From IMG/VR virus record IMGVR_UViG_3300029945_000574, positions 1 to 20,737 of that record: DNA of 20,737 bases, one strand, 5' to 3'. Position 1 is the stretch's first letter. Each line of letters starts with the position of its first letter. This document shows positions 4,196-20,556 of this stretch, one piece after another. This DNA comes from a virus. The notes under the pieces are model-generated. The model ran no database searches. It saw only the letters and a program-made list of their open reading frames with translations, and was not told the DNA's origin. A program made the position numbers and the translations under genes.

Positions 4196-4425
4196 GGAAG
4201 CGTGACTTCCTCCGAGTCTGACCTAGGCCGTGATGTGATCACCACGCTCACCTCGTGGTTTGGGCAAACGGGATTGCCACGGACTTCCTGCCACCCCTTA
4301 GGCATGGAGGGAAAGAGCACTGGGTTGAACGCCGCGCATCGCCATTCTTCGCTTTCTTCCGCTCCACAGAAGTCACAGCGAAACGTATACCTAACCGTGA
4401 GATTCGCCGGGCAAAGACCATTCAT
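4192..4425 (-). CDS. Small CxxC zinc-ribbon-like phage protein
   Basis: The 77-residue protein has RCDFCGAEESEEWRC near the N-terminus, then MPKGWQEV and PVCPNHE. This gives four cysteines and a histidine in a zinc-ribbon-like arrangement. Small phage proteins with a CDxCG start, a PxGW motif and a late CPxH are common, but I know of no assigned function. Both ends are coupled: its ATG overlaps the sigma-factor stop (ATGA), and its stop overlaps the terminase ATG (ATGA). A packaging or late-regulation role is possible from position only. Confidence 0.65.
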   Translation of the reverse strand: MNGLCPANLTVRYTFRCDFCGAEESEEWRCAAFNPVLFPSMPKGWQEVRGNPVCPNHEVSVVITSRPRSDSEEVTLP

Positions 4426-5114
4426 ACCGTCGTCAGCTCCTGCATCATTGCGCCCAAACGCTCGGACTCAGCGCCCAGCCAGTCACCAACCCAGTCACTC
4501 AGACGCGGCCCCGGGAGCACGTCGCCAGAATCTGTAACGGGAATGCACCGCCCGGGTTCAAAATCCTTCCCGTTGAGATGGACGTTGCTCTTCACAAACA
4601 GAACAGGTGTGCGCATCAGATCGAACTCGCGCGACAGGAGCGTCCGCGCGTCTTTGAGCATGGCGTACACTGTGGACCGGCTCACGCCCATCGCCCGTGC
4701 CACATCGAGCGTGTTCTGTCCGTAGAGCCATACCCAGCGCGCCGCCTGTGCCGTGCGTTGTGGCAGCTCACCCAAACAGCGCTCCACGATGGCGACCAGC
4801 TCGGCGCCGCCGATCTCGTCATCGAAGGCGGGAATCCAGCCGGCGGTCTCCACCTCGGGCATCTCCTCGTGGGTTGCCTCACGCCAGGTCCGACCGCGGA
4901 TCGACATCAGGACCGCGCCACGAACTCGCGGGTAAGCGTACGCCGTGAACGGCACACCGCGCTGCAAATCGAAAGAGTCCTGAGCCTGCCAGGTCGCGAG
5001 CATCGCCACCTGGACCAGGTCGTCGGCTTCGATAGAAGGCGGAAGCCGGCGGGCGATCGAGCGGGCAATGGAGGTCGCCCACTTCTGCAGCTCGGGGATG
5101 AGATCGCGGCTCAT
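4422..5114 (-). CDS. Phage-encoded sigma-70 family RNA polymerase sigma factor
   Basis: This 230-residue protein has sigma region 2 at about residues 29-76: EADDLVQVAMLATWQ, then PFTAYAYPRVRGAVLMSIRG, close to the FliA/SigB style in which xRxxGAxxDxxR follows region 2.2. Region 4, an HTH, lies at about 134-160 (NTLDVARAMGVSRSTVYAML). Region 1 is missing and the region 3 linker is short. After region 4 there is an unrelated tail of about 65 residues that I do not recognise. A sigma factor would direct host RNA polymerase to phage promoters. Its place just before the terminase and portal genes suggests control of late transcription. It overlaps both neighbours as ATGA. A diverged small terminase with an HTH is an alternative, but the region 2 match argues against it. 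Confidence 0.8.
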   Translation of the reverse strand: MSRDLIPELQKWATSIARSIARRLPPSIEADDLVQVAMLATWQAQDSFDLQRGVPFTAYAYPRVRGAVLMSIRGRTWREATHEEMPEVETAGWIPAFDDEIGGAELVAIVERCLGELPQRTAQAARWVWLYGQNTLDVARAMGVSRSTVYAMLKDARTLLSREFDLMRTPVLFVKSNVHLNGKDFEPGRCIPVTDSGDVLPGPRLSDWVGDWLGAESERLGAMMQELTTV

Positions 5115-6054: not shown

Positions 6055-6258
6055 TCAACTGGGCTTTCCCGCTGGCAGGAAGGCCCGCAGGATCTGTCCA
6101 GAAGCAAAGCGCCATTGCCGTCCGAACCGCGACGCTCCAGGAATCTGGCCATCACGAGCCCGACGCCTCACCGTCTTTTCGTCGAGCCGCAGGATGCCGG
6201 CCACCTCTTTCGCCGTGAGGAAGGCTGGGAGTCGCGGTGGGCGTTGTGCCTGTGTCAT
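6055..6258 (-). CDS. Excisionase/HTH_17-like DNA-binding protein
   Basis: The 67-residue protein has the core FLTAKEVAGILRLDEKTVRR, ARDGQIPGASRFGRQWRF and a short C-terminal helix. This is the winged helix-turn-helix of the excisionase/MerR-like HTH_17 family: LT-x-x-EVA, TVRR, then GxIPxxRxGRxWRF. It would bind DNA as an excisionase, replication accessory or regulator. I chose the ATG at 6258, which overlaps the upstream stop (ATGA); the open frame extends further but lies inside the previous gene. No integrase is in view, so the name excisionase rests on the fold only. Confidence 0.8.
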   Translation of the reverse strand: MTQAQRPPRLPAFLTAKEVAGILRLDEKTVRRRARDGQIPGASRFGRQWRFASGQILRAFLPAGKPS

Positions 6259-6611
6259 TGCAGCTGCGCCTCCGCGGCCATCGCGTCGTGCATCCGGATA
6301 AGGCACGCATCGCACAGCCCGACCTCGCGCAATTCCGGCCGCTCCGCAGGGAGAGCGTTGCCGCAGCCCGTGCAAGGCTGTCGCGCACATTGGAACTTGA
6401 CCTGCCGTGCGGGAACGCGCAGCAAGTACAGAATGCTCGTGTGGTGCCGATGTAGGATCCGTCCAATGGCCGGAAGGCTAAGGCTTCTTTCCCGCAGTTC
6501 GTGAGCCACCAGCCGACGCGCGGCAACTAACTCCCAAGCATGCGACCCGCTAAGCAGATCCTCCACTGCGAGGCCACGCTCCTGGCAAACACGCTCGATG
6601 GTTGTCTTCAT
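6255..6611 (-). CDS. DnaA domain IV-like protein with C-terminal zinc ribbon
   Basis: In this 118-residue protein, residues 4-66 resemble the DNA-binding domain IV of DnaA: IERVCQERGLAVEDLLSGS, VAARRLVAHELRERSLSLPAIGR, then HRHHTSILYL, where DnaA has RDHTTVLHA. The AAA+ ATPase domain is absent. A zinc ribbon follows, with C80/C83 (CTGC) and C100/C103 (CDAC). Such a protein could recognise a phage origin with DnaA-box-like sequences or compete with host DnaA. Its neighbours are a replisome-organiser-like protein and an HTH protein. ATG 6611 overlaps the preceding stop (ATGA) and the stop overlaps the next ATG (ATGA). The longer open frame upstream is a shadow of the previous genes. Confidence 0.75.
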   Translation of the reverse strand: MKTTIERVCQERGLAVEDLLSGSHAWELVAARRLVAHELRERSLSLPAIGRILHRHHTSILYLLRVPARQVKFQCARQPCTGCGNALPAERPELREVGLCDACLIRMHDAMAAEAQLQ

Positions 6612-6796
6612 TTGAACCACTCCCGCCCTCTCTCGATCAACTCTTCCTGCACCGGCTCGGGTTTTGTCTTTGGCGTCTTTTTCTGCGATGGCGGCGGCGC
6701 CGGATTGCACTTGCAGCGCCCGGCCACCGTGCGGCCTCGCAGATCTGTGAACATGCGCATTCCCGTGTAGTTGCAGAGCTTGCAGCCTGGCTTCAC
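6608..6796 (-). CDS. Small zinc-binding peptide
   Basis: This 62-residue protein starts at GTG 6796, overlapping the upstream stop as GTGA. Cysteines are arranged CKLCNYTGMR and then AGRCKCNP, like a DnaJ-type or rubredoxin-like knuckle with two CxC/CxxC pairs. A Pro/Lys-rich linker (PAPPPSQKKTPKTKPEP) and a short acidic helix follow. The N-terminal half resembles small phage proteins encoded next to helicase loaders and replication initiators. Function unknown. Confidence 0.65.
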   Translation of the reverse strand: MKPGCKLCNYTGMRMFTDLRGRTVAGRCKCNPAPPPSQKKTPKTKPEPVQEELIERGREWFK

Positions 6797-7680
6797 ATCG
6801 CCCTCCCAACCGCCTGCTCGCGAGCCAGCGTCACCAGCCAACCCCACCCGTTGCCAGGTTTGCGTTTGCCGACGTGCTTCAGAAACCCAAACAAGCCGTC
6901 CGGATCGTACCCACAGGCATCCAGCAGCGTGTGACAGAGCCCCGCATCCGGCGCAGGCCAGTGGCACTGATTGACCTCGCGAAACTGGTTAAGCATCCCG
7001 ACCGCGGCGTCGAGTTCGTCGTTCGTGTAGCGCTCGCCGAGTAGGCCCGGAAGATTGCGACCAACCAGCGCGCCCGTCGAGGCGAAACCGTTGCGTGGGA
7101 CAGGGGGTGGGTTCACCGGGGTTCGTTTTTGCGGCGGCGTAACAGCCTTCGGACCCTTTTCGCCGCTTTCGCTTATGGCTTCTGAATTTTGGCCTCTGGC
7201 TTCTGACGGGGAGGTAATAGGGGGGTCTGGGGGGAAAGAGGAGGGGGAAACGGGTAAAACCGTTTCAGAAACGTTTCGTGGGGTGGGGTCTGAAACGTTT
7301 CCTTCCCGTTCCATATTCCGTTTCCTTTCTGCCTTGCGTACCCGAAACTCCCTCACCCGTTCCGTCGAACTATCGCTCTCCATCTGGTGCTCATCCCAGT
7401 CGTGGGGCGCCCAGTCGCCCAGAGCAACGAGTTCGAATAGGCCAGCGTCTTTCAGCCCTCTGAGTGCGTCGGCCACCTTGCGAGCTGGGATCAGGAGCGC
7501 CCTGGCGATCGCGCCCTCATCCGGCATCACCCCCTCGTTCTTGCGATAGAGCGCGAGCAGGAGGTGCCACTGCCGGAACTGCTTATCGGTCAGAGTCCGC
7601 GTCTTGTCGTCCGCGTCGAGAACCGTCACGTACGAACGGAACCACAGGTTTTTCTTGCCTTTGCCCGTCTTCCCGCTCAT
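6793..7680 (-). CDS. Phage replisome organiser / DnaD-like replication protein
   Basis: The protein has 295 residues from ATG 7680, which overlaps the upstream stop (ATGA). The N-terminal part, about residues 10-100 (KNLWFRSYVTVLDADDKTRT, then TDKQFRQWHLLLALYRKNEG, IARALLIPARKVADALRGL), matches the winged-helix N-terminus of phage replisome organisers. A charged, Pro/Ser-rich linker spans about 110-205. The C-terminal part has conserved-looking aromatic and glycine positions (DPDGLFGFLKHVGKRKPGN, then GWLVTLAREQ). Such proteins bind the phage origin and recruit helicase or its loader. No helicase or loader gene is in the window, so the phage probably uses the host's. Confidence 0.7.
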   Translation of the reverse strand: MSGKTGKGKKNLWFRSYVTVLDADDKTRTLTDKQFRQWHLLLALYRKNEGVMPDEGAIARALLIPARKVADALRGLKDAGLFELVALGDWAPHDWDEHQMESDSSTERVREFRVRKAERKRNMEREGNVSDPTPRNVSETVLPVSPSSFPPDPPITSPSEARGQNSEAISESGEKGPKAVTPPQKRTPVNPPPVPRNGFASTGALVGRNLPGLLGERYTNDELDAAVGMLNQFREVNQCHWPAPDAGLCHTLLDACGYDPDGLFGFLKHVGKRKPGNGWGWLVTLAREQAVGRAM

Positions 7681-7913
7681 TGTGCTCCGTGCTCCGCCTC
7701 GGGCATCAGCCAAGCCGGCACAGGCTCAGCAGCGACCGGTGTAGGCAGCTTCCGCGGCTGTTCGCAGTCGCGATGGAAGCATTGGCCATCGTTCATATAC
7801 CATGCGTCGTGGATCAGGATTGGCTTCTTGCAGAAGCCGCAGATGCGCTTGGGCTTCTTTGGCTCGGGCTCGGTCGAGCGGCCACAGGTCGGGCATTTGG
7901 GGTAGATCTTCAC
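7677..7913 (-). CDS. Small LIM/zinc-finger-like protein
   Basis: The protein has 78 residues if translation starts at GTG 7913, which overlaps the preceding stop (GTGA); the ATG at 7943 would overlap that gene by 34 bases and is less likely. Two metal sites are visible: CPTC near residue 7, then CGFC near 25 followed by HDAWYMNDGQCFHRDC, which resembles half of a LIM-type finger. It may be a structural adaptor for protein or nucleic acid. Function unknown. Confidence 0.65.
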   Translation of the reverse strand: MKIYPKCPTCGRSTEPEPKKPKRICGFCKKPILIHDAWYMNDGQCFHRDCEQPRKLPTPVAAEPVPAWLMPEAEHGAQ

Positions 7914-8137
7914 TGCCGTGCCTTCTTTCGTAGACGCTTCCACTCGGCAAGCGCGGCGGGCGCCTCGTCAACCTCGCCGCAGTGGCACCGCATCACCTTG
8001 TACCCGACTTTGGTGGAGACGCTGAGGTTGAGGTATTCCGGGGAGTGGCCCGTCTTTCGGCAGGCCTCCGCGCGTGCCGTGTCGCCGTGGACAAACTCGC
8101 CGTCAATCGGCTTGAGCGGACGCGGGCGCTCAGCCAC
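7910..8137 (-). CDS. Small phage protein with CHC motif, function unknown
   Basis: This 75-residue protein starts at GTG 8137, where a GGAGG ribosome site lies six bases upstream and the start overlaps the DUF5131 stop by 8 bases. Visible pieces are a proline-rich start, EACRKTGHSPEYLNLSVSTK, VMRCHCGEVD and a basic C-terminus (EWKRLRKKARQ). Three cysteines and a histidine could bind one zinc ion. The longer open frame upstream runs inside the DUF5131 gene and is not used. Confidence 0.6.
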   Translation of the reverse strand: MAERPRPLKPIDGEFVHGDTARAEACRKTGHSPEYLNLSVSTKVGYKVMRCHCGEVDEAPAALAEWKRLRKKARQ

Positions 8138-9167
8138 GGGGAACCTCCGGAAGCTCGCGCACGCGCAGGTCTTCGGGCCACTCGGCAGGGTCGCCGCCCT
8201 TGCGGTCGTGAGGTAGGACGTGAACTGGAAATCCCTGCCAGTTGCATACGCCTCGGTAGCGCGTATCCATGGGCCACGATGTCGGTGTGTCGCCTTCGAA
8301 ACCATCATCGTTGCAGCCGTAGACGTTCGCCCCGAACTGCTTCACGAAGCACGCCACATCAGCCGCCTTGCACTGCCGCACGATGGAGCGGATCCAGGCC
8401 ACGTTGCAGGGCCTTGCACCAGGTCCGGACTCGCCGCCGACGATCACCCAATCGAGTCCTCTTGTCTTCCCTTCAGTGCAACCATCATTGAGAGCCCACC
8501 CAGGGATCTCGGAGAGATGCATCGGTCGCGGTAGGAATGGAGCAACGCTGATCGGCCCCAGGAGCGGCTCCGCGCTCACGAACCGCACTGCCGCCGGCGT
8601 CAGGAGTAGCTGCGGGATTCGCGCGTCGGCCGTCGCCTGGTTCTCGACAGAGACGCCGAGCCAGACGTTGGGGAGGGGCCACCGAGCCGGATTGCCGATA
8701 AAGCCTGAGGTCGTGTATTCGCCGCCGTCGCGCGTAACAAAACCCTCGCCGTCGGGTCTGAACCGCTGGAGATACGCGAGCATCCGCTCCGGTCGTTTCG
8801 TGAGCACCTGGAAAGTGTGTTCCCGGGCTCTGGCCATTACGCCGAACACGCGGTCAATCGCTTTCTCCGAAAGCGACTCATGGAAAAGATCGCTCATGCT
8901 ATTAACGAAGATCTTGCGTGGCTTCCTCCAGCGCAGCGGCAGTTCCAGCGCCGACTCGATCAGCTCGACCCTGCCCGTCCAGTGTGCCAGCCCGTCCGCC
9001 ATTACCGCCGCGTATGGCAGCCCGGTAACTGGCGAGCTGAGCCCCGGCAGGTTCCGCGCCGCCAGGCGCTCGGCATAGCAACGGCGGCAGCCCTCACTCA
9101 CGCGCGAGCAACCCCGGACGGGGTTCCAGGTTGCGTCGGTCCAGGAAATCTCCGTCTTCGCTCCCAT
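8130..9167 (-). CDS. DUF5131 (phage Gp37/Gp68) three-cysteine family protein
   Basis: The 345-residue protein starts KTEISWTDATWNPVRGC and carries C20, C27 and C30 (C-x6-C-x2-C, ending CRRCYAE), the three-Cys motif of the Gp37/Gp68 family. Other family marks are KIFVNSMSDLFHE, FQVLTKRPERM, VWLGVSVENQ, RFVSAEPLLGP and WVIVGGESGPGARP. The motif resembles a radical-SAM-type iron-sulphur site, although the family's reaction is unproven; elsewhere it often occurs with the TcmP partner protein, which is absent here. I chose ATG 9167, which overlaps the 30-codon ORF stop as TGATG; a GTG one codon earlier is also possible. Confidence 0.9.
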   Translation of the reverse strand: MGAKTEISWTDATWNPVRGCSRVSEGCRRCYAERLAARNLPGLSSPVTGLPYAAVMADGLAHWTGRVELIESALELPLRWRKPRKIFVNSMSDLFHESLSEKAIDRVFGVMARAREHTFQVLTKRPERMLAYLQRFRPDGEGFVTRDGGEYTTSGFIGNPARWPLPNVWLGVSVENQATADARIPQLLLTPAAVRFVSAEPLLGPISVAPFLPRPMHLSEIPGWALNDGCTEGKTRGLDWVIVGGESGPGARPCNVAWIRSIVRQCKAADVACFVKQFGANVYGCNDDGFEGDTPTSWPMDTRYRGVCNWQGFPVHVLPHDRKGGDPAEWPEDLRVRELPEVPRG

Positions 9168-9259
9168 CACTTTCCCTCCAAGTGGTCAATCCGGCTCAGA
9201 ACCTTGATCGCGTCTGGGCATATCCTGAGGCGACGCGAAGCCGCTTCTGCCACGTGCAT
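9167..9259 (-). CDS. 30-codon micro-ORF between rusA and the DUF5131 gene
   Basis: The ATG at 9259 overlaps the RusA stop as TGATG, and its own TGA overlaps the DUF5131 start as TGATG. It encodes MHVAEAASRRLRICPDAIKV and ten more residues, an amphipathic, basic peptide. It fills exactly the space between the two genes. Its 3' end supplies the GGAGG ribosome site for the next gene, so its translation may serve mainly to couple the flanking genes. No homology recognised. Confidence 0.5.
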   Translation of the reverse strand: MHVAEAASRRLRICPDAIKVLSRIDHLEGK

Positions 9260-9696
9260 CAGATTTCCCCCGGTTGCATTGTGTACGGCTGCACTACAAG
9301 CTCCAGCCGCGGCTCCTGCCGGTCCAGGCCGATCCGCGTCTCATGCCAGTGGATCAGCCGGTCGTTGACCACAAAGTTGTTCGTCTGCAGCCAGTCGCCA
9401 ACGGCCTTCTTGTAGTTGTCTTCGTCGCCCCGCTGCGGGTTCGGCAGGTAGACGGCAATCGAGATTCGAATGGGCGTCGCCGCCGGCAGCGTCACGCCCG
9501 CGTTGCGGAGCCGGGCCCAGAGCGTGACCGCGCTCCAGGCCGTCTCCTTCATCCACCGCATGTAGCCCTTCGAAGGCAGCAGCACGTCCCGGCCGCGCGC
9601 CTTGACGCGGTGATTGCCCTTGGTGGGCGTGCGCCCGGGCAGGACCAGGCGCCAGCCTGGCCCCACGCGAGCCGCTCTGAGTTCGTCGAGGGCCAT
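9259..9696 (-). CDS. rusA: RusA-family Holliday junction resolvase
   Basis: This 145-residue endonuclease would resolve Holliday junctions formed during phage recombination or packaging. Family marks are LVLPGRTPTKGNH (18-29), LPSKGYMRWMKE, YLPNPQRGDEDNYKKAVGDWLQ (83-104) and VVNDRLI (109-115). The acidic residues D91, D93, D101 and D112 match the catalytic aspartates. Length is close to the usual 120-150 residues. I chose ATG 9696, overlapping the upstream stop as TGATG; the open frame extends upstream to 9756 but those codons lie in the previous gene. Confidence 0.9.
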   Translation of the reverse strand: MALDELRAARVGPGWRLVLPGRTPTKGNHRVKARGRDVLLPSKGYMRWMKETAWSAVTLWARLRNAGVTLPAATPIRISIAVYLPNPQRGDEDNYKKAVGDWLQTNNFVVNDRLIHWHETRIGLDRQEPRLELVVQPYTMQPGEI

Positions 9697-10148
9697 CAGC
9701 CTTTGCCCTCGCACATTTCGAGGAGCCCCAGGAGCTCCTCGATCGAGCACACGCAATCGGTCCCCAGCAGGTACATCAGCTCAGGCTCAAAGCCCTCCGG
9801 CTGTAAGAGGAATATGACAAGTTTGCCCTTGCCGATCGCGTATCCAGCCTCCAGGTGGGCACTCCGACCGCAGGGAAGAACGCAGACGCACGTGTCGCAC
9901 TTTTCGAGAGCGGCTTTGTCGAAGCCGTAGCCACGCACAACGGCAGGATGCCCCCGGTAGAGGTTCACGGTGAACTTCGGCGGAGTCCACTTGCGCCAGT
10001 CGGGATCAACCTCCGACCAGGCAAAGCCGTGTTCCCCTGGGGCGGGATTGCGGAAGTCATAAACCTCGTGACTCGCCTCGCGCAGGGCAGCGACAACCTG
10101 CGCCTGGAGCGAATTGCGCCACGACGATGCGACGTAGATCCGCTTCAC
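9696..10148 (-). CDS. Nucleoside 2-deoxyribosyltransferase-like protein
   Basis: This 150-residue protein starts at GTG 10148, overlapping the previous stop as GTGA. The sequence VKRIYVASSWRNSLQAQVV, VYDFRNP, GFAWSEVDPDWRKWTP and, near the C-terminus, CVLPCGRSAHLEAGYAIG with EPELMYLLG fits the nucleoside 2-deoxyribosyltransferase-like fold, in which a glutamate (E100 here) acts as nucleophile. Enzymes of this fold exchange or hydrolyse bases on deoxynucleosides or deoxynucleotides. In a phage the likely roles are nucleotide salvage, making a modified base precursor, or cleaving a nucleotide signal. Which applies cannot be told from sequence. Confidence 0.8.
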   Translation of the reverse strand: MKRIYVASSWRNSLQAQVVAALREASHEVYDFRNPAPGEHGFAWSEVDPDWRKWTPPKFTVNLYRGHPAVVRGYGFDKAALEKCDTCVCVLPCGRSAHLEAGYAIGKGKLVIFLLQPEGFEPELMYLLGTDCVCSIEELLGLLEMCEGKG

Positions 10149-11662
10149 TGCGCTGTCTCCTGCGGTTGCTCGGAGTGCCGTTCGTGCGCCCAGGCCACCA
10201 CGCGCGCGCCCGGCGTCTTGAGCTTCTGAACCTGGTCGTCGGGAGCCGTCCTGAGTTGCAGACGGACGCTCTTCATCACCGCGTCCAGCCCCAGGCGAAT
10301 CGCTTCTTCGGATGGAACGTCGACGAAGTCCTCGCCCTGGTCGCTGAACAGCGGCGTCTTCGCTTTGCCCAGCCGCACCCACCAGGCGTAGTTGTAGCCG
10401 TCTTCCATGGCCACGACGCGCACCCGGGTGTACCAGTCGGACTTGGCCTTGATCTCCTCGTCGTACACCACGCGGATCGGCTCCAGGGCCTCGGTGGGCT
10501 CTTCCTCGAACTCCGGGTCCGCGGGGAGCTGGTCGGCTGGCGCGGCGTGATCGCCGATCCAAAGCTCACCCTCGACGAGCAGGGTATTCAGCCAGTCGAG
10601 TATGCGGTTCCACTTCTTCGCATCCCTGTTCGATGCGCGCTGGGCATGATCCCGCGCGAAGTCGTCCATCCGGTTGTATGCCGCAACCGCCGCCTCAACC
10701 TGGTTGGGATAGCAGCCGTGGTTCTCTACGTCCTCGCATAACAGCGGCACTTCGAGCACGGCGCCGCAGCACACCAGTGTCAGGCCGTTGATCCACTCGT
10801 CCAGCCCGATCTGGAGCACGCGCACCTCGGCGTCGGTCCCCTCGGTCATGAAGATGGCCTTGCGGGAGCCGTCCTTGGCCATCGGGAAGATCCGGATCAC
10901 GCGCGGGTCGCGCCGGTCGTAAACGCCGTTCTTGTTCGGTTGTGGCCAGTCAGTGGCCGGAGTCTTCACCGAAACGACCCCACTAGCGGGTAGGGGCGAA
11001 TCATCACCACGCCCAAGGGCCTCAACGGCTTCGTGAAACTCGGTCGCTGTGCCATCGAAGGCCACCTCGCCGTTAGGCCCGGTCACCTTTACCGCGAGCC
11101 CTTCCTTCGCCGGCGCCATCTCCGGCACGATCTGCGGCCGGGGCTGCCCGAACAGCTCCGAGTTACTCTTCGCTGGCCCCTCGGCCTTGGCCTGGTCCTG
11201 TAGCGCGAGCTGCTCCTCGCGGGAGGCAAGCACCAACTTGCCCTCGCCGCCGCCGACCTTCTTCAGGAACTCGAGCAGCTCCTGCTCGCGGCCGTCGACC
11301 AGCATCCGGAACTTCGCCGCCAGATAGGTGCTCTTCGCTTTTCGCTTGCCCTCGCCGATCTTGACGATGATGAAGCGGTCGATCAGCGGGCAGCGCAGCG
11401 CCAGGTGGAAGGGACTCTTGCCGACCGTCGTCAGGTCGAAGGCGGAGTCCGCGTTCCTGATTTCGTAGTCAAGCTCCCACTTCTTGCAGCCCGCCTTGGG
11501 CGTGCTGTCCTGGTCGTAGATGGTCCACTCTGCGCCCATGGCGCGCGCTGCCAGGCGGCTGAGGCGCGCGATTGCGTGCATGTAGGTGGCAACGCCGCCG
11601 CGCGCGATCTTGAACTCGGCGCTCACGAAGTGCGCCTTTTCGAATGTGATTGCCTTGTCCAT
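10145..11662 (-). CDS. Large phage protein of unknown function in the recombination module
   Basis: The protein has 505 residues from ATG 11662, with an AGGAGAT ribosome site upstream; the preceding stop is two bases away. I do not recognise it. There seem to be three parts. The N-terminal domain (1-150) starts MDKAITFEKAHFVSAEF and includes WELDYEIRNADSAFDL. A flexible middle (150-290) contains KSNSELFGQPRPQIVPEM. The C-terminal part holds KAIFMTEGTDAEVRVLQIGLD, an acidic stretch (ADPEFEEEPTEALEP) and WYTRVRVVAMEDGYNYAWWV. Its position between a DEDDh exonuclease and a resolvase points to DNA metabolism, but no catalytic motif is evident. Confidence 0.75.
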   Translation of the reverse strand: MDKAITFEKAHFVSAEFKIARGGVATYMHAIARLSRLAARAMGAEWTIYDQDSTPKAGCKKWELDYEIRNADSAFDLTTVGKSPFHLALRCPLIDRFIIVKIGEGKRKAKSTYLAAKFRMLVDGREQELLEFLKKVGGGEGKLVLASREEQLALQDQAKAEGPAKSNSELFGQPRPQIVPEMAPAKEGLAVKVTGPNGEVAFDGTATEFHEAVEALGRGDDSPLPASGVVSVKTPATDWPQPNKNGVYDRRDPRVIRIFPMAKDGSRKAIFMTEGTDAEVRVLQIGLDEWINGLTLVCCGAVLEVPLLCEDVENHGCYPNQVEAAVAAYNRMDDFARDHAQRASNRDAKKWNRILDWLNTLLVEGELWIGDHAAPADQLPADPEFEEEPTEALEPIRVVYDEEIKAKSDWYTRVRVVAMEDGYNYAWWVRLGKAKTPLFSDQGEDFVDVPSEEAIRLGLDAVMKSVRLQLRTAPDDQVQKLKTPGARVVAWAHERHSEQPQETAQ

Positions 11663-12294: not shown

Positions 12295-12558
12295 CCCTGG
12301 TCCTCCGCCGGCGACTCGCTCGGCTTGCTGAAAAACCTCATTGCAACCTCTTGTTTCAGTGCCCTGTTTCCCAGGGCTGGTTTTCCCTTGGCCACGGCGC
12401 TTGCACGCGGCCTGGTCCGGGATCTCCGGATAGTCGATGTCAAGGTCCATCCCGACCGGGCAGGCGAGCACCGCGATCGGCTGGGCGTCCGCGCGCTGTT
12501 CGTCGCCGCGGTCGACGCTGGACTCGCCATAGAAGTCGTCGCCGGGAAAGCCGCTCAC
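12291..12558 (-). pseudogene. Small phage gene, apparently frameshifted
   Basis: GTG 12558 overlaps the ERF-protein stop (GTGA) and starts MSGFPGDDFYGESSVDRGDE, then IAVLACPVGMDLDIDYPEIPDQ. Codon third positions stay G/C-rich to about 12400, then this frame loses that signal. The next frame gains it: AVAKGKPALGNRALKQEVAM, then RFFSKPSESPAEDQG, with a stop that overlaps the exonuclease ATG as ATGA. A skip of one base at about 12381-12405 would join both halves into an 88-residue protein with normal coupling on both sides. Explanations are a mutation or assembly indel, programmed +1 frameshifting, or an N-terminal extension of the exonuclease. Function unknown. Confidence 0.45.
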
Positions 12559-13442
12559 TGGGCGTTCCCCTGCAGTTCCGGCGGCAGATCGTTGTCGTCG
12601 ACGGCGACGCCGTGCCCGTTCTTGATGGCGCCCGGGGCTGGTGGTGCGGGTGCTGGAGGCCGGGCGGGCTCCGGGGTGGCGCGCTCGAAGAGGTCCTTAT
12701 GGATCGCGCGCGCTATCGTCGCGTCTGGAACATCCTTCAGCCGCTCGAAGCCGTGCTGGCCGACGACCCCGTAGAACGTAGTGCTCCCCAGCCGCTTCAG
12801 TTCCTCGCGGCACTGTGCCAGAAACGAATGCTGCCCTGGCCACGCCTCGGGCTCGGGCTTCGGCGCCGCGACTGGAGGCGCGGTCGACGGGCGCGTGGTG
12901 GCCTGCTGCTTGGGAGCCGCGGTCCGTTGCTGGGGTGGCGCGCCGGTCGCCTTGCCGTTGATGTTGGTCACGTCGGTGTCTTCATCTGAGGCAATCGGGA
13001 AAGCCGATGTGACCGCGTACCTGCGCAGGTAGGTGATTGCCGTGCCTAGATCTTTCGCCGCGTCCTGGCCCATTCCGACGAATGAAATCGGCATGTCGAG
13101 TCGCGTCATGAGCCGCTGTCCGCTCTTGTGCGCGATGGTCGTCAAAACGCAGGGGCCGTCGCTACGCACGAACGGCGACTGGATTAGCGCGAGCCCGTGC
13201 TTCGCCAGCACCGGACGCAACCCGGCAAGTGTAGTGGCGAGATCTGCATACTTGTACGTATACTCGCTACCCGCCTTCGTTTTGATCTTGGCAGTGCTGT
13301 CCTTGAGTGGGTTGCTCAGCTCCCCGCCGGCGTTGGCGAGCGCGGTCATGAGCAGGTCGCACGGATTCGAGAGATAGAAGAGTGGCGGGGCGTCAAGCGA
13401 CAGCTCTCCGGTCGTCGGGTCTACTTCGTTTTCAGGTGTCAT
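12555..13442 (-). CDS. erf: ERF-family single-strand annealing protein
   Basis: This 295-residue protein of the ERF superfamily anneals complementary single strands during phage recombination. The family core lies at about residues 62-156: YKYADLATTLAGLRPVLAKH, LALIQSP, LTTIAHKSGQ, QDAAKDLGTAITYLRRYAV and FPIASDEDTD. The region after it is Pro/Ala/Gln-rich (165-215) with a helical segment (SFLAQCREELKRLG) and an acidic tip (VDDNDLPPEL), as usual for annealing proteins with a variable tail. ATG 13442 has a GGAGG site eight bases upstream and follows the previous stop by one base. The adjacent DEDDh exonuclease is a plausible partner. Confidence 0.92.
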   Translation of the reverse strand: MTPENEVDPTTGELSLDAPPLFYLSNPCDLLMTALANAGGELSNPLKDSTAKIKTKAGSEYTYKYADLATTLAGLRPVLAKHGLALIQSPFVRSDGPCVLTTIAHKSGQRLMTRLDMPISFVGMGQDAAKDLGTAITYLRRYAVTSAFPIASDEDTDVTNINGKATGAPPQQRTAAPKQQATTRPSTAPPVAAPKPEPEAWPGQHSFLAQCREELKRLGSTTFYGVVGQHGFERLKDVPDATIARAIHKDLFERATPEPARPPAPAPPAPGAIKNGHGVAVDDNDLPPELQGNAQ

Positions 13443-14130: not shown

Positions 14131-14206
14131 ACCGTTGGTGGCGCCAGGAACCCTGCCAACGCCCTGATATACTGTGAGTTTGCGAACCCTTGAACGAACT
14201 ATAACC

Positions 14207-17200
14207 ATGAAGCTGAGCGCACTCTTATTGCTGACTGCGGGTCTTGTTTCGGCCCAACCGCAGTTTTCCACCGCACAAGCAGCCCGCCTCGTCATCGGGC
14301 AACCCAGGTTTTCTTCCCAAAGAAGCGATATCGTCGGGACCATAGTGGGTGCGGCACAGGGCGTCGCCTTTGCCAACGGAACACTGCTCGTCGCCGACGC
14401 CAACCGGCAGGGCGGGTTCCCGGCAAACAGCCGCGTTCTGGTTTACAAGGACATCATCTCCCAGTTCCCCGGCCCGCACGATGAGGTCGTCCAGAATGGA
14501 ACGCCGTGCCCGATCTGCCTGGGCTACCCGGCAGGCGGTGCGCCACCCGGCGGCACGCCATGGCCGGGGGCCAGCACCGTGCTCGGCCAGCCGGATTTTG
14601 TAAGTTATCTGCCCAACCAATCTACGACCGTGAACGCGGCGCCTAGCGCGACAACCATGAGTTATCCCGTCGGCGTGGCCTACAACGGCACGATGGTCGC
14701 GGTTGCCGACGCCGAGAACAACCGCGTGCTGATCTGGAATTCGCTGCCGCAGAACAACGATCAACCGCCCGATTTCGTGGTGGGTCAACCGAATTTCACC
14801 TCCAACACTTCGGGCCAGAACGGCCTCTACGGTTTCCCGTACGGGCACTCTTCGCCTACTTCCCTGCGCGCTCCTTCAGGCGTGTTCCTCGACGCAAATA
14901 ACGGCCTCTGGGTCGCCGACACGGGCAATGATCGCGTGTTGTTTTACGGCCCGATCACTGGCAACGGCCAGGCAGCCCAGCTTGTTCTGGGACAGACGAA
15001 TTTCAGTGTCGACGGGCAGAATGCGTATACGCTCAACACGACGGCCAGCACGCTGTTCGCGCCTGCTTCGGTTTCGAGCGACGGCCAGCATCTGTTCGTC
15101 GCCGACAACTTTCAGAATCGCGTGCTGATCTGGAACACCATCCCCACCACGAACGCCCAACCCGCCGATGTGGTTGTGGGGCAGGCGGACTTCGTCTCCA
15201 ACCTCTCCAACACGCTCACCACAAGCCTGGACTCGTATTTCGTAACTATTTTCAGCTCCGCTCTGTGCGCATCGAATGGCACCGACACCGTCACCGAGGT
15301 CGGGACGACGCTGTATCTGTACCCCGACCGGTGCGCGGGCACGCTCAGCTCGCCGATGTCGGCCATTAGCGACGGAACCCGCCTCTTCATAGCCGACTCG
15401 GGCAATGATCGCGTGTTGGTTTACAACAAGATTCCGACGCAAAATGGCCAGCGGGCCGACGTGATTCTCGGCCAGCTCACCGAGTTTGTGGATAACAGTT
15501 CGGATTCCGGCGAGGCTGCGCTGGTGTCTTCGGCTGACTCTTTCAAGTCGCCCAACTCGCTGGCCTGGGACGGAACCAACCTCTACGTGGCCGACACTTT
15601 CAACCGCAGGATCGCCGTCTACACTCCAGGAGATTTCCAGCTTCCCGTCGCGGCAGTCCGCAATGCCGCCAGTCCGTTTGTTTACGCCCAGGGCACCGTC
15701 GTGGTAACCGGCACCGCCCAGGACAACAACACAGTGACGGTTACCCTCGGTAATAACACCGTGTTGGACTCCACCAACACCGAGATTACGGCTGCCTATT
15801 CTTACAAGGAATCGGCCGGCAACAGCCTGGGCGACATCGTCAATGGAATGGCCAACGCAATCAATAGCGCGAACAACGGCGCCGGCGATCCCTACGTGAC
15901 TGCGATCCCGGACCCGATCGCAGCCACATTGATTCTTAAAGCGAAAGCGACCGACACCGACGGCAACGAAGTTACTCTGGCCGCCTCTACCAGCCTCACT
16001 TCCTCGAAGACAACCGTCACGGCCTCGGGAACCACATTGACCGGTGGTGAGGACGCGGCGATGATGGCGCCGTTCGCGCTGGTTCGCATCTCGGGCGGAC
16101 TCAACCAGAACATCGTGAACCTGGATGCATCTCAATTGCCTCCGGTGCAGCCGTTAAACAAGCCCCTGCCTGCATCTCTGGGCGGCGTCGAGTTCTATGT
16201 GGACGGCATCAAGTGTCCGCTGGTCGCCGTGACCCCGACATCGTTCGTAGCGCAAATGCCGATCGAACTGGCATTCGCGCTGGAACCGGAGACGACGGTT
16301 CCCGACCCCAGCACTACAGTCAACGTCACGGATACGCTGCGTTACCCGAGGACGGCATCAGGCGTTGTGCGAGTCACAAGCCCGGATGGTTCCGTTCAAG
16401 TGAGTTCGGCCCTGCACATTCCGATCATTCAGCAGAACCCGTCGATCTTCTACGATCCGAGCATGCAGCCGAATCCTGGCGTCGCCTTCCACTCCTCGAG
16501 CCAGGCGACGGCCACAATCTCCGTGGACGGGTCGATCCAGGGCGGCGATCAGGCGTCTCTTTACATCCGGGACCGCGTTTACATGTACACCGTGCAGCCG
16601 GCCGACGCGCTGGTCACTGTGCGTGACGCGCTGATCGCGATGGTCAATGCCTCCGACCCCGAGGTCCAGGCCTCGCCCTCGGGCCCGTTCGCCCGCATTC
16701 GTCTGCAAGCCTTCGTGCCGGGTCCGATGGGCAACGGGATTCCGATCTCCACAGCCGTCACATCGAGCATCATCACGACTGCGGCGACGAGCACCGCCGT
16801 GGCCGTCTACGAGGCGGCAAAGATCATCCTGACCGCATTCAATTCGACACTTTGCTGCGCCAACATCGCGGGCGCGCCGGTCACTACGGCAAACCCCGCC
16901 GTCCCGGGCGAGACCATCTCAATCTACGCCTCCGGCCTGGGACGCCTGCAAGACACCAGCGATTTCGTCGCCATGATCGACGGCCAACCCTTCAACGGCA
17001 GTCCGACCAACAACGTGACTGACAATGGGTTCGTCGCGGCATTGGTTGGTGGCAAAACGGCAAACGTGCTGTTCTCCGGACTAAAACTGGGTTACGTCGG
17101 CGTCTACCAGCTTGACCTGGAACTGAATTCGGGCCTCACAACGAATCCTAAGACAACGTTGACGATCTCCCAGTTGTACCAAACGTCGAATATCGTCTCG

Positions 17201-17233
17201 ATTCCGGTGGTCGGCACGGCGCCGGCGAACTAA
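14207..17233 (+). CDS. Large secreted NHL-repeat beta-propeller protein
   Basis: The protein has 1008 residues from ATG 14207, with signal peptide MKLSALLLLTAGLVSA. Residues about 18-490 hold six NHL-type blades marked by repeats such as LWVADTGNDRVLFYG, LFVADNFQNRVLIWN, LFIADSGNDRVLVYN and LYVADTFNRRIAVYT, each followed by a VxGQxxF strand. This would make a six-bladed propeller. Two related beta domains follow at about 493-604 and 764-861. The C-terminus (about 900-1000, PGETISIYASGLGRL, then GYVGVYQLDLEL) is a domain common in secreted Solibacter-type proteins. Function unknown; surface binding is likely. A GTG at 14174 in frame precedes the signal peptide and is not used. TATACT at 14168 is a possible -10 box. 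Confidence 0.87.
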   Translation: MKLSALLLLTAGLVSAQPQFSTAQAARLVIGQPRFSSQRSDIVGTIVGAAQGVAFANGTLLVADANRQGGFPANSRVLVYKDIISQFPGPHDEVVQNGTPCPICLGYPAGGAPPGGTPWPGASTVLGQPDFVSYLPNQSTTVNAAPSATTMSYPVGVAYNGTMVAVADAENNRVLIWNSLPQNNDQPPDFVVGQPNFTSNTSGQNGLYGFPYGHSSPTSLRAPSGVFLDANNGLWVADTGNDRVLFYGPITGNGQAAQLVLGQTNFSVDGQNAYTLNTTASTLFAPASVSSDGQHLFVADNFQNRVLIWNTIPTTNAQPADVVVGQADFVSNLSNTLTTSLDSYFVTIFSSALCASNGTDTVTEVGTTLYLYPDRCAGTLSSPMSAISDGTRLFIADSGNDRVLVYNKIPTQNGQRADVILGQLTEFVDNSSDSGEAALVSSADSFKSPNSLAWDGTNLYVADTFNRRIAVYTPGDFQLPVAAVRNAASPFVYAQGTVVVTGTAQDNNTVTVTLGNNTVLDSTNTEITAAYSYKESAGNSLGDIVNGMANAINSANNGAGDPYVTAIPDPIAATLILKAKATDTDGNEVTLAASTSLTSSKTTVTASGTTLTGGEDAAMMAPFALVRISGGLNQNIVNLDASQLPPVQPLNKPLPASLGGVEFYVDGIKCPLVAVTPTSFVAQMPIELAFALEPETTVPDPSTTVNVTDTLRYPRTASGVVRVTSPDGSVQVSSALHIPIIQQNPSIFYDPSMQPNPGVAFHSSSQATATISVDGSIQGGDQASLYIRDRVYMYTVQPADALVTVRDALIAMVNASDPEVQASPSGPFARIRLQAFVPGPMGNGIPISTAVTSSIITTAATSTAVAVYEAAKIILTAFNSTLCCANIAGAPVTTANPAVPGETISIYASGLGRLQDTSDFVAMIDGQPFNGSPTNNVTDNGFVAALVGGKTANVLFSGLKLGYVGVYQLDLELNSGLTTNPKTTLTISQLYQTSNIVSIPVVGTAPAN

Positions 17234-17274
17234 CCGGCAAACTGAGAATCGAGCCGATCAGCTGCCCAAGGGCG

Positions 17275-17294
17275 AGAGCGCTACACAGCGCTCT
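17275..17294 (+). terminator. 8-bp perfect hairpin after the NHL gene
   Basis: The arms AGAGCGCT and AGCGCTCT pair perfectly around the loop ACAC, followed by only two T and then CC. It may act as a weak terminator for the NHL gene. It lies directly before the TATAAT at 17302 and covers the expected -35 position, so it could instead be an operator for the next gene. Confidence 0.4.
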
Positions 17295-17301
17295 TTCCAG
17301 C

Positions 17302-17307
17302 TATAAT
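17302..17307 (+). promoter_or_regulatory. TATAAT, candidate -10 box of the 75-residue gene
   Basis: A perfect -10 hexamer lies 18 bases before the ATG at 17325. No -35 hexamer stands at 16-18 bases; the hairpin at 17275-17294 covers that position. If used, the leader would be about 10 bases. Confidence 0.4.
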
Positions 17308-17324
17308 AGTAGGCAGACGTAACG

Positions 17325-17552
17325 ATGAACTCGCGTTTCGATCCTGCCGCCGCACTCGAGGACCTCCGTGAGGAGGCACTTCTGCCGAACCCTGTGCGTG
17401 TGCGCGACATGATCCTTCGGACCGAGCACAGCCCGGAAGAAGCGCTTGAGCTTAACCGGAAGTTCACCGTTTACCAACAGGTCTTTGCCGAGGCGCAAAG
17501 GCTCGCAGCCGGGCTCCTGGCAGAGCTCGAACACGCCGTAAAAAAGGTGTGA
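17325..17552 (+). CDS. Small acidic helical protein, function unknown
   Basis: The 75-residue protein is largely helical (DPAAALEDLREEALL, EEALELNRKFTVYQQVFAEA, LLAELEHAVKKV). It stands alone on the plus strand between the NHL gene and the DUF2934 gene, with a possible promoter just upstream. There is no membrane segment and no cysteine. I do not recognise a family. The coding frame is open from ATG to TGA with host-like codon use. Confidence 0.55.
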   Translation: MNSRFDPAAALEDLREEALLPNPVRVRDMILRTEHSPEEALELNRKFTVYQQVFAEAQRLAAGLLAELEHAVKKV

Positions 17553-17702
17553 CCGCGTTCTAAGTTTTCCGCTTCCCTGCGCCGCCCACAATGCAATGTA
17601 GCTACCGGCGGAAAGCTGAAACATTTCTTCATCCAAACGTTAGCTGGAGTTCAACTCAGCGATGTATCAAGAATCAACCAATCAACAGGAGAAACGGAAT
17701 CA

Positions 17703-18089
17703 ATGGCTATCCGGAAGAAAACTACTGCAAAATCGGAGACCGTGAGCGCGGAGGAGACGGTCAAGTCAGGTCAAAACTCTTCGCGCGTCCGCACTACCTC
17801 CGCTGCTGACGCAACAGGTGCGCCCGACAACAAGGCCGCGAAAGCCCAGTCTCCCGCTGCCGCTACGCACAAGTCGCCGGCGCGCAAGAGTGTCAATGCC
17901 GCGCCGGCCGCGGAACTGCTGGTCGAATCCAGCAGCGTTGAAAAGACTACGTTCGATGTCGCGCTGCACCAGGAGGAAATCCGCAAGGAAGCCTACTGCA
18001 ACTGGCTGCACAACGGCTGCCCGCAGGGCAGCGAGCATCAGGACTGGCTGGCCGCGATAGAAATCGTCCGCGCCCGTCACGAAAAGTAG
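17703..18089 (+). CDS. DUF2934 domain protein
   Basis: In this 128-residue protein, the first 80 residues are a low-complexity Ala/Lys/Ser/Thr-rich stretch. The C-terminal 40 (EEIRKEAYCNWLHNGCPQGS, then DWLAAIEIVRARHEK) are a DUF2934 domain: IxxxAYxxW, GxPxGS, then DWxxAExxx. The domain is a short helical pair of unknown role, frequent in Acidobacteriota and some proteobacteria. An AGGAG ribosome site lies 12 bases before ATG 17703. It ends convergent with lexA; no clear terminator separates them in the 87 bases between. Confidence 0.8.
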   Translation: MAIRKKTTAKSETVSAEETVKSGQNSSRVRTTSAADATGAPDNKAAKAQSPAAATHKSPARKSVNAAPAAELLVESSSVEKTTFDVALHQEEIRKEAYCNWLHNGCPQGSEHQDWLAAIEIVRARHEK

Positions 18090-18176
18090 AGTTGCCGGAG
18101 AGCGGGCTTCCGCGGCCAGGAAATGCGCAATCCCCACTGGAGTTGCCTGGCTGGAAGTCCGCTCCATTCCGAGCGC

Positions 18177-18812
18177 TTAACGATACTTCCTCAGCACTGC
18201 CAACACCCGGCCCTGCAACTGCACATTCGCGGCCGGAACGATGATGGGCGCCATGGACGCGTTTGCCGGTTGAAGACGAATGTTCTCGCCTTCCCGGTAG
18301 AGCCGTTTAAGGGTTGTCTCCGCGCCATCCACCAAGGCGACCACGATCTCCCCGTCGCGCGCCGACTGGACCTTCTGCACCAGCACGTAATCGCCGGCGC
18401 AAATGTGGTCCTCGATCATGGAATCACCCCGGACACGCAGGGCAAACATGCCGGGCGCACCCGCGAAGTCGCCGAAATCGAGAGTCTCGGGACTTTCCAT
18501 GGCTTCGACAGGCGCTCCGGCTGCAATCGTGCCCATCAGCGGGATTTCGAAGGCAGAGCCGCTTTCGCGCTTCTCCAGACGATCATGTTCCGAACGTAGA
18601 TATTCCTCGGAGACTTCCAGCGAACGGCTCTCGTTGTAGCGGCGCTTGAGATAACCCTTCTGCTGCAAAGCCGTAATGTGCTTGTGGACCGTGGCGAGGG
18701 AGCCAAGCCCCACGCCTCGCGCGATCTCTTCGAAACTGGGGCAGTATCCGGTTCGTTCGGTGAACGAAGCCACGAAATCCAGAACATTCTTTTGCTTGGG
18801 GGTTAAGGCCAT
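18177..18812 (-). CDS. lexA: LexA, SOS repressor
   Basis: LexA represses DNA-damage response genes and cleaves itself when RecA filaments form. The protein has 211 residues from ATG 18812. The N-terminal winged HTH covers about 1-65 (LTPKQKNVLDFVASFTERTG, then FEEIARGVGLGSLATVHKHI). The cleavage site is A98-G99 (GTIAAGAPV), and the Ser/Lys dyad is S131 (VRGDSMIEDHI) and K169 (ETTLKRLY). All key residues are present and the length is normal. An in-frame ATG at 18851 lies inside the -35 region of the likely promoter and is not used. ATG 18812 has no ribosome site and coincides with the predicted transcript start, so the mRNA may be leaderless. Confidence 0.95.
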   Translation of the reverse strand: MALTPKQKNVLDFVASFTERTGYCPSFEEIARGVGLGSLATVHKHITALQQKGYLKRRYNESRSLEVSEEYLRSEHDRLEKRESGSAFEIPLMGTIAAGAPVEAMESPETLDFGDFAGAPGMFALRVRGDSMIEDHICAGDYVLVQKVQSARDGEIVVALVDGAETTLKRLYREGENIRLQPANASMAPIIVPAANVQLQGRVLAVLRKYR

Positions 18813-18818
18813 ACCCGC

Positions 18819-18847
18819 AGTATTGGCGAATACAGAGCGAAAGTCAA
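18819..18847 (-). promoter_or_regulatory. Likely lexA promoter with TTCGC direct repeat
   Basis: On the minus strand, TTGACT (18847-18842) and AATACT (18824-18819) are separated by exactly 17 bases. The start point predicted about seven bases on falls on the A of the ATG at 18812. Between the boxes, TTCGC occurs twice, six bases apart (18841-18837 and 18830-18826). A direct repeat inside the promoter would suit an autorepressor site, though the Acidobacteriota LexA box is not known to me. Confidence 0.55.
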
Positions 18848-18892
18848 GCATTACGAGGCGCTCTTATCCGTAGCCATCCGCGAAGGTCACAG

Positions 18893-18930
18893 AGCGGCCC
18901 TGTGTACAAAGCGACGGTTGGCCGCTTTTT
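18893..18930 (+). terminator. Terminator-like hairpin upstream of lexA
   Basis: AGCGGCC (18893) pairs with GGCCGCT (18920), followed by five T to 18930. A competing shorter stem, AAAGCG with CGCTTT, lies inside. The T-run makes sense only for plus-strand transcription, yet no plus-strand gene ends here. It may mark a small RNA or an old gene end. Confidence 0.35.
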
Positions 18931-19099
18931 GGCATTCTCAGCTCTGTGCTGGGGGCAGTTTCATCATTGGGGGTGACCCGGACTGGATGGCTGTGTAATT
19001 GCCTGCTGATTATCCGACAGCTTCGTAGAAATGCGGCCCACTTTTTATTGAAGACGCCGCCGCGAGCATTTTGATCTTACGTTTGGAGGATTGAGAGTC

Positions 19100-19759
19100 A
19101 TGCAATCTTGCAGTTGGATGGTAGCTGGAATCTTAACTAGCTGTGTTTGTTTTGGCCAGACGATTTCAATCGGAGTCATCGGGGGAGTCAGGGCCACCGA
19201 TGATCTGACCGGCGGAGGGGCAACGAGTGTGTCAAAGCGATACGCCGTCGGGCCGACGCTGGAAGTCGGCCTGCCGTTCGGGCTGGCGGTGGAAGCCGAC
19301 GCGCTGTACCGGCGCGCGGGATTCCAGACATCCGCTTCGAACGGAGACTACAACGTTTTCGCCGTAGAGCACGCAAATCTGTGGGAAGTTCCAATATTGC
19401 TGAAGTACAGAATTCCCATTGCCGCGGCCAAGCCATTTCTGGAAGCCGGTTATGTGTCCCGTGTGATTGCCGGATCACCGACCAAGAACGAGGTGGACCA
19501 CTTGCCCGGAGGCATAGTGTATACGTATTCCACATACTACTCGAACTGGTCCAATGACAACGGATTTGTCGTTGGCGGAGGAGTGCAGTTCGCGCTCGGC
19601 CACCTGCGCCTGTCGCCGGTAATCCGCTATACGCGCTGGAGCGGCAGCACGGTCATGGGCGCATATGCCGGTCCGATGGAGATTTTCAGCGCCCCGCCCT
19701 GGCAATCCAATCAAAACCAGGTGGACGTGCTGCTCGGCGTCGCCTGGAAAGTGCGCTAG
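19100..19759 (+). CDS. Outer-membrane beta-barrel protein
   Basis: The protein has 219 residues from ATG 19100, with GGAGG ten bases upstream. The signal peptide is MQSCSWMVAGILTSCVCFGQ, ending near Gly-Gln. The rest alternates polar and hydrophobic residues in strands typical of an 8-stranded barrel: ISIGVIGGVR, YAVGPTLEVGLPFGLAVEAD, WEVPILLKYRIP, KPFLEAGYV, GFVVGGGVQFAL, LRLSPVIRYTRW, VDVLLGVAWKV. It resembles the OmpW/outer-membrane beta-barrel group frequent in Acidobacteriota and Bacteroidota. Likely in the outer membrane; ligand unknown. An in-frame TTG at 19091 is less likely because it sits on the ribosome site. Confidence 0.8.
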   Translation: MQSCSWMVAGILTSCVCFGQTISIGVIGGVRATDDLTGGGATSVSKRYAVGPTLEVGLPFGLAVEADALYRRAGFQTSASNGDYNVFAVEHANLWEVPILLKYRIPIAAAKPFLEAGYVSRVIAGSPTKNEVDHLPGGIVYTYSTYYSNWSNDNGFVVGGGVQFALGHLRLSPVIRYTRWSGSTVMGAYAGPMEIFSAPPWQSNQNQVDVLLGVAWKVR

Positions 19760-19877
19760 GACTTTGACGGCTGGCGCTTGACGCGCGAGGAGGGTGGCGG
19801 AGACAGTTCGTCGGAGGCCGCAGCTATCGCGGAGGAGAATCCGGCGTAGACATCACGCAGCGGGCCGCACTCAGACG
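19757..19877 (-). other. Short coding-like remnant downstream of vapC
   Basis: On the minus strand a frame without ATG, GTG or TTG reads SECGPLRDVYAGFSSAIAAA, then SDELSPPPSSRVKRQPSKS and a TAG. Third codon positions are mostly G or C. It starts after stops inside the end of vapC. It looks like the C-terminal end of a lost gene, but chance is possible in high-GC DNA. Confidence 0.2.
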
Positions 19878-20314
19878 CTTCCTATCAAAACCAGGTTTCC
19901 GGGCTCGGCGCGTTGTACTGCTTTCAACGGGATTGACCGGTCGAACGTGGCGAGCCGTCCGTGATTTCGAACGGCAAGCCCGAGCAAATACGCATCCGTG
20001 ATCTTCTGGTGTCCAACGATCATCGCCGCCCGGAACAACGACTCGTCCAGGAGGGACACCGAGTCCTGCCAGAAATGATGATCCACCGTGGAACAAAGGC
20101 CTCGCAGGCGATCGGTCACTTCCGAGGGAGACGCCTTCACTGTGGGATATGCCGGGTTACTCAAGACCCGGATACAGCCATTGGCCGTTATCGGGCATGT
20201 CGCCCAGCCATGTTTTCGATTCCGGCCGAACCAGCGGTGCGCCTCTTCGTGATTGTCGTGGGCAGGATCGAAGAGAGCTACCAGAACATTCACGTCCAGC
20301 AGGGCGATACTCAC
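19871..20314 (-). CDS. vapC: VapC-type PIN-domain toxin
   Basis: The 147-residue PIN-domain ribonuclease toxin starts at GTG 20314, overlapping the antitoxin stop as GTGA. Conserved parts are ALLDVNVLVALFDPAHDNHE (first catalytic Asp), CPITANGCIRVLSNPAYP, HQKITDAYLLGLAV (Asp) and GRLATFDRSIP (Asp). This arrangement fits the VapC subgroup with GHxxxTDAYLLxLA. Free toxin would cleave tRNA or other structured RNA and stop growth; the partner antitoxin neutralises it. All expected acidic residues are present, so it should be active. Confidence 0.92.
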   Translation of the reverse strand: MSIALLDVNVLVALFDPAHDNHEEAHRWFGRNRKHGWATCPITANGCIRVLSNPAYPTVKASPSEVTDRLRGLCSTVDHHFWQDSVSLLDESLFRAAMIVGHQKITDAYLLGLAVRNHGRLATFDRSIPLKAVQRAEPGNLVLIGSV

Positions 20315-20535
20315 GCCTCGTCTCTCAATTCGTTCACAATCCGCAGATCAGGCTTCGAAGTGCGAGCCTTCGGCACGAAAAGCAGAGCCCCGTTGCGCAC
20401 TTTCAGGGGCGCTTTCGTGGTCAGCGATTGTCGAGCTAGTTCCGAGATGACCTGCCCAAGCGTTACCCCTTGCTCGCGAGCCAGATCTCTGGCCGTGGTT
20501 ATGAGATCGTCGTCGAGTTCCAGCGTCGTACGCAT
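20311..20535 (-). CDS. vapB: VapB-type ribbon-helix-helix antitoxin
   Basis: The protein has 74 residues from ATG 20535. The N-terminus MRTTLELDDDLITTARDLA, then QGVTLGQVISELARQSL, is a ribbon-helix-helix DNA-binding domain. The C-terminal part (LLFVPKARTSKPDLRIVNEL) would wrap the toxin. It lies directly before vapC with a GTGA overlap, the usual order for VapBC. It probably represses its own operon at the inverted repeat 20557-20582. The in-frame ATG at 20556 is less likely because it crowds that operator. Confidence 0.88.
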   Translation of the reverse strand: MRTTLELDDDLITTARDLAREQGVTLGQVISELARQSLTTKAPLKVRNGALLFVPKARTSKPDLRIVNELRDEA

Positions 20536-20556
20536 GCCTTCAACGTAACACATCAC

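Follow-up and report, generated by a model that had tools for sequence, protein, structure and literature searches.

In our reading, which we hold with fair confidence, the early replication and recombination operon of an acidobacterial prophage carries two independent accessory enzymes—a deoxyribosyltransferase-like (NDT-like) protein predicted to attack deoxynucleoside monophosphates and a DUF5131 protein predicted to be a radical-SAM enzyme. The two genes occur in many phages as loose neighbours and do not make up a dedicated two-enzyme system. From the gene content, predicted folds, invariant residues and a loose co-occurrence, we infer reactions, substrates and biological roles for each protein separately.

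The window, the whole 20,737-base IMG/VR virus record analysed here, encodes its phage genes on the minus strand. Near the operon start lies a gene for an ERF single-strand annealing protein (12555–13442; PF04404, E = 9.6e-17), followed by an exonuclease and a 505-amino-acid protein that matched nothing in Pfam, PHROG or PADLOC (10145–11662). Next come the NDT-like protein (9696–10148; 150 amino acids, GTG start; phrog_12607, E = 1.6e-42), a RusA-like Holliday junction resolvase (9259–9696; 145 amino acids; PF05866, E = 4.8e-6; phrog_34, E = 1.3e-9), a putatively coding 30-codon open reading frame (ORF) (9167–9259; MHVAEAASRRLRICPDAIKVLSRIDHLEGK) and the DUF5131 protein (8130–9167; 345 amino acids; PF07505, E = 1.8e-81). 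The two enzymes and the resolvase thus lie at 8130–10148, where the initial annotation had placed them. Downstream are small ORFs, one of which (7910–8137; 75 amino acids) overlaps the end of the DUF5131 gene by 8 bp and belonged to no family in Pfam scans, and a replication-initiation or DnaD-like protein of the same operon (6793–7680; phrog_3926, E = 1.2e-8). A protein encoded at 6255–6617 has the DnaA C-terminal DNA-binding domain (PF08299) without the DnaA ATPase, and a phage sigma-70-like factor with regions 2 and 4 is encoded at 4422–5114, two genes upstream of the terminase. To the right of the phage genes, an apparent host flank (14174–20556) contains a gene for a Solibacter C-terminal-domain protein and lexA, suggesting that the window spans a prophage edge in an acidobacterium; adjacent ORFs at 19871–20556 look, by eye, like a VapBC-type toxin–antitoxin pair. 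A further virus record in our collection (L001) matches the window over 12,085 bases with zero differences and is a fragment of the same virus, so it provides no independent evidence.

The initial annotation described the two enzymes as joined by TGATG overlaps to the resolvase in one coupled unit. This holds for the NDT-like gene, which overlaps the RusA gene by 1 bp at a TGATG, but not for DUF5131, because the 30-codon ORF, with TGATG at both ends, lies between it and RusA. The ORF may be a real micro-gene or a mere coupling device. At its other end, the NDT-like gene has its GTG start within the stop of the 505-amino-acid gene (GTGA, 4-bp overlap). The reconstructed operon has 17 junctions, and genes overlap at 13 of them; the TGATG overlap therefore does not set the NDT-like, RusA and DUF5131 genes apart, and we rejected it as a sign of a dedicated unit; the weak, one-sided co-occurrence described below likewise speaks against such a unit.

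The NDT-like protein scored below the Pfam gathering thresholds of the NDT families (PF05014, 13.4 versus 28.8 bits; PF15891, 17.9 versus 30 bits), which are detection thresholds and not biochemical definitions, and 13 of its 52 homologues matched PF05014 at E = 0.01. Judged by their sequences, these proteins are a divergent clade of the NDT superfamily. A single-sequence PDB search gave no useful direct match for either the NDT-like or the DUF5131 protein. The AlphaFold2 (AF2) model of the NDT-like protein (pLDDT 93.5) has the flavodoxin-like NDT fold and is closest to a 2'-deoxyribosyltransferase (7o62; Z = 16.1, r.m.s.d. 1.9 over 123 residues), followed by DNPH1 (Z = 13.6). Three residues, Tyr5, Asp77 and Glu100, are invariant in the alignment of 52 sequences and form the Tyr-Asp/Asn-Glu set that is catalytic in this superfamily; they correspond to the triad Tyr6/Asn77/Glu103 of phage DmtZ (PMC12884076), and the Asp and Glu to D80 and E104 in the active site of human DNPH1 (PMC10603095). 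The predicted fold of a nucleos(t)ide N-glycosidase or transferase, together with the triad, agrees with the earlier assignment to nucleoside chemistry. Plasmids of Mycobacterium and Mycobacteroides species also encode related proteins (40–42%), annotated as hypothetical.

Comparison with characterized enzymes points to a nucleotide substrate. DmtZ of Gordonia phage Ghobes is likewise a phage NDT-fold enzyme of about 150 amino acids with a Tyr/Asn(Asp)/Glu triad (PMC12884076), and differs in having Asn as the middle residue and in its Z-genome context with PurZ; PurZ (PF00709) was found in none of the 50 NDT virus records, and we rejected a role in a Z-DNA pathway. DmtZ frequently occurs as a fusion with a dNTP hydrolase, and three phage homologues of the NDT-like protein carry a fused C-terminal MazG/DUF550-like domain (L002:8001-8831, L051:8001-8834 and L056:8001-8834), a call that rests on a below-cut-off PF04447 match in L056 (E = 0.001) and on likeness by eye in the other two; the domain in L051 had no relative in the phage collection. 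With DNPH1/RCL and the MilB/BcmB N-glycosidases, the family shares the fold, the active-site Asp and Glu and a local motif (SAHLEAGY compared with GTHIEIGW), whereas overall identity is only about 15–20% and the likely base pocket is partly different, with WRN and HEVYDFRNP invariant in the NDT-like family. The profile of 52 sequences matched a MilB/BcmB-type CMP N-glycosidase and a designed phosphodeoxyribosyltransferase (E = 3e-4). Six residues ahead of Glu100 the protein has Gly94, and a Gly occupies the same place in the designed enzyme (4hx9), consistent with a 5'-phosphate substrate. The protein most likely acts on a deoxynucleoside monophosphate, by cleavage or by transfer, and is probably a 2'-deoxynucleoside 5'-monophosphate N-glycosidase or phosphodeoxyribosyltransferase. 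Glu100 would most likely attack C1' of the nucleotide to form a glycosyl-enzyme ester, which Tyr5 would hold and Asp77 would serve; the enzyme would then free the base and deoxyribose 5-phosphate or hand the sugar phosphate to another base, probably cleaning or biasing the deoxynucleotide pool during phage replication. TIR NADase folds also resemble the model (Z about 12), which makes NAD or another substrate possible.

The DUF5131 protein is a clear member of the Gp37/Gp68 family (PF07505, 273.7 bits versus a gathering cut-off of 28.9; phrog_2045), unusual only in a C-terminal part longer than in many members. Relatives were found in 156 of 50,697 phage records; the literature yielded only incidental mentions of DUF5131. 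Three cysteines, C20, C27 and C30, are invariant across 56 sequences, in keeping with an N-terminal loop that holds a 4Fe-4S cluster, and are spaced CX6CX2C instead of the canonical CX3CX2C. The canonical spacing does not strictly define radical-SAM enzymes, among which spacing variants are known. The AF2 model (pLDDT 87.4) contains a partial TIM barrel, and nearly all of its 22 best PDB entries (Z = 7.8–12.2) are radical-SAM enzymes, led by spore photoproduct lyase (SPL; Z = 12.2 over 203 residues, r.m.s.d. 3.2); LIAS and RlmN scored 9.5–9.7 and non-SAM barrels 7.7 or less. All 56 members matched the NCBIfam model rSAM_mob_pairA, with a best E value of 3e-15 that lies below the cut-off of that model. 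These features fit the iron–sulphur enzyme that the initial annotation had considered possible.

Profile alignment placed DUF5131 next to an SplB-like protein with Radical_SAM and SPL domains in Pfam (hhalign score 50.4, E = 1.4e-6), with NPVRGCSRVSEGCRRCYA aligned over NPYRGCSHSCVYCYA. Here the cysteine motif GCSRVSEGCRRCYA lies over GCSHSCVYCYA, that is, CX3CX2C plus three extra residues. Among the controls, the best unrelated ORF reached 28.8 and the best shuffle 21.8, and the score fell to 26.4 once the three cysteines were removed; two far higher scores in the random sample were set aside and taken as DUF5131 genes, which their loci contain. The likeness to SPL is mostly structural in the model: alignment to a bona fide SPL sequence was insignificant (E = 0.13), the Foldseek TM score was low (0.31–0.35), a Pfam scan of the window protein matched neither SPL (PF20903) nor Radical_SAM, and a PDB search with the DUF5131 profile gave no useful match. 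Given the insignificant alignment and the low TM score, we name the protein 'radical SAM, SPL-like' and not 'SPL'; its most likely identity is an SPL-type radical-SAM enzyme whose cysteine motif has expanded to CX6CX2C. The three cysteines would most likely bind a SAM-splitting 4Fe-4S cluster, and because the predicted barrel resembles that of SPL, a base in DNA (or RNA) would be the likeliest target. Small proteins are encoded next to DUF5131 or near NDT genes in other records (L081:3451-4188, L108:8966-9301 and L013:4943-5392), with one weak ASCH match among them (E = 0.015); ASCH/PUA-like domains read modified nucleosides.

Only the DUF5131 half of the candidate TcmP–DUF5131 pair (TIGR04474; PADLOC PDC-M30/M41) is present in the window. 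The initial annotation was right that TcmP is missing: none was found among the window ORFs scanned. TcmP occurs in none of 50 phage DUF5131 records, including the fragment of the window virus, so its absence is the normal state in phages, and we rejected TcmP as a missing partner. The TcmP pairing may instead belong to the defence candidates of PADLOC, to which the window protein itself is related (PDC-M41B, E = 3e-68; PDC-M30B, E = 7e-65).

The initial annotation had proposed a neighbourhood analysis across phages to check for a pair that might install or remove a modified base, or counter a host defence based on nucleotide signals. DUF5131 was present in 15 of 50 NDT virus records and in 5 of 46 SSB-bearing controls (p = 0.025), a comparison in which the NDT records were drawn by similarity to the window phage, favouring its own gene content. 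The SSB-bearing controls took the place of an ERF-based set, which gave only 2 loci. In the reverse direction, NDT genes were no commoner in DUF5131 virus records (1/50) than in controls (1/46). The co-occurrence is weak and one-sided and does not support a functional pair. Where both genes occur they are 66 bp to 38 kb apart, and less than 1 kb apart in 5 of 15 records, a proximity comparable to that of C5-methylases to NDT (less than 1 kb in 3 of 16). No constant neighbour of either gene was found in phages; the neighbours scatter over replication and DNA-metabolism genes, the commonest being dCMP deaminase for NDT (4/139) and HNH for DUF5131 (4/145), and a small recurring AERRRQ-type protein (L048:12640-12978; no Pfam match) was rejected as not enriched (4/50 versus 3/46). 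Isolated phages with NDT had no annotated DUF5131 nearby. Among cultivable phages, Rhizobium phage RR1-B and Mycobacterium phage Amochick carry an NDT gene and Mycobacterium phage Panchino carries DUF5131. L002, L003 and L004, the virus records whose NDT genes are closest to that of the window, all have DUF5131, so a link at the level of the lineage is possible. A single modified-base pathway of phage DNA, in which the NDT-like protein would supply or destroy a nucleotide and the radical-SAM enzyme would alter a base, draws on the one-directional enrichment, on genes that are adjacent in L029 (66 bp) or lie within 0.6 kb of each other in L003, L047, L048 and L053, and on near-adjacent genes in two bacterial contigs (L253 and L294). 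We nevertheless consider it quite improbable: reciprocal enrichment is missing, the proximity is like that of other early genes, the 50 NDT records are devoid of PurZ, no modification polymerase or kinase was seen in the window, and the closest bacterial relative of the NDT-like gene (70%), from an Acidobacteria metagenome-assembled genome, lies on a 5 kb contig that lacks DUF5131. Counter-defence, in which the NDT-like protein would destroy an NAD-derived or cyclic nucleotide signal or DUF5131 would interfere with host defence, seems very unlikely. The fold shared with TIR NADases, the PADLOC matches of DUF5131 and a Tad2-like neighbour of NDT in one phage are compatible with it, yet that neighbour is single (1/139), the NDT-like protein has no PADLOC match, the genes around both are replication genes, TcmP is absent from the phage DUF5131 records, and nothing points to cyclic-nucleotide signalling.

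The bacterial relatives of the NDT-like protein suggest a narrower version of the role that our preferred account of two independent enzymes gives this protein. A genome scan yielded 80 bacterial loci with a family member, rumen Bacteroidales being the source of many, and in about eleven Bacteroidales genomes the gene lies 8–9 nt upstream of one for a Vsr mismatch endonuclease. No other gene adjoins bacterial NDT genes nearly as often as Vsr (PF03852; 9/117; the chance expectation is far below one if there is one Vsr per 2,500 genes, although the loci come from related lineages), and genes for a NUDIX hydrolase and for a C5-cytosine methylase also occur in several of these neighbourhoods; Pfam confirmed these identities. 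The Vsr-linked loci (L271:6001-6989, L260, L302, L309 and others, from Prevotellaceae) make up a recurrent group of genes associated with cytosine methylation. The nucleotide that human DNPH1 removes, hydroxymethyl-dUMP, originates from modified cytosine (PMC10603095), and the NDT-like enzyme may by analogy sanitize methylated-cytosine nucleotides (5-methyl-dCMP or a derivative), in phages those from degraded methylated host DNA. Besides the Vsr, NUDIX and methylase neighbours, this is in line with an NgoBV restriction enzyme that adjoins NDT in 3 bacterial loci, with dcm directly downstream (10 bp) of the family gene on the Bacteroides fragilis plasmid pBFO17_1 (L327:6001-7195) and with CMP/hydroxymethyl-CMP N-glycosidases among the closest characterized profile matches; we regard it as tentative and on the unlikely side, because the Vsr loci are all from Bacteroidales, mostly Prevotellaceae, and are not fully independent, and because phage NDT records show no enrichment of C5-methylases over controls (16/50 versus 12/46), a possibility that we rejected. 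The Vsr, C5-methylase and NUDIX neighbours, taken with the three MazG-like fusions, nonetheless suggest clearance of modified, perhaps 5-methyl-dC, nucleotides. It is doubtful, though conceivable, that the phrog_12607-type family does in prokaryotes and phages what DNPH1 does in humans. Its members would then clear the dNTP pool of epigenetically modified cytosine nucleotides, 5-methyl-dCMP for example, acting after a dNTP pyrophosphatase of the NUDIX or MazG-like kind and alongside C5-methylase/Vsr systems.

As a pair, the NDT-like and DUF5131 genes are ordinary; each alone gives a specific, testable prediction. DUF5131, a common phage family, is predicted to be an SPL-like radical-SAM family with an expanded cysteine motif. 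The NDT clade, widespread in phages and Bacteroidales, is predicted to cleave deoxynucleotides and may sanitize methylated-cytosine nucleotides, in which case the enzyme should act on 5-methyl-dCMP or a relative. If true, such sanitation would mean that the DNPH1 principle also holds in bacteria and phages.
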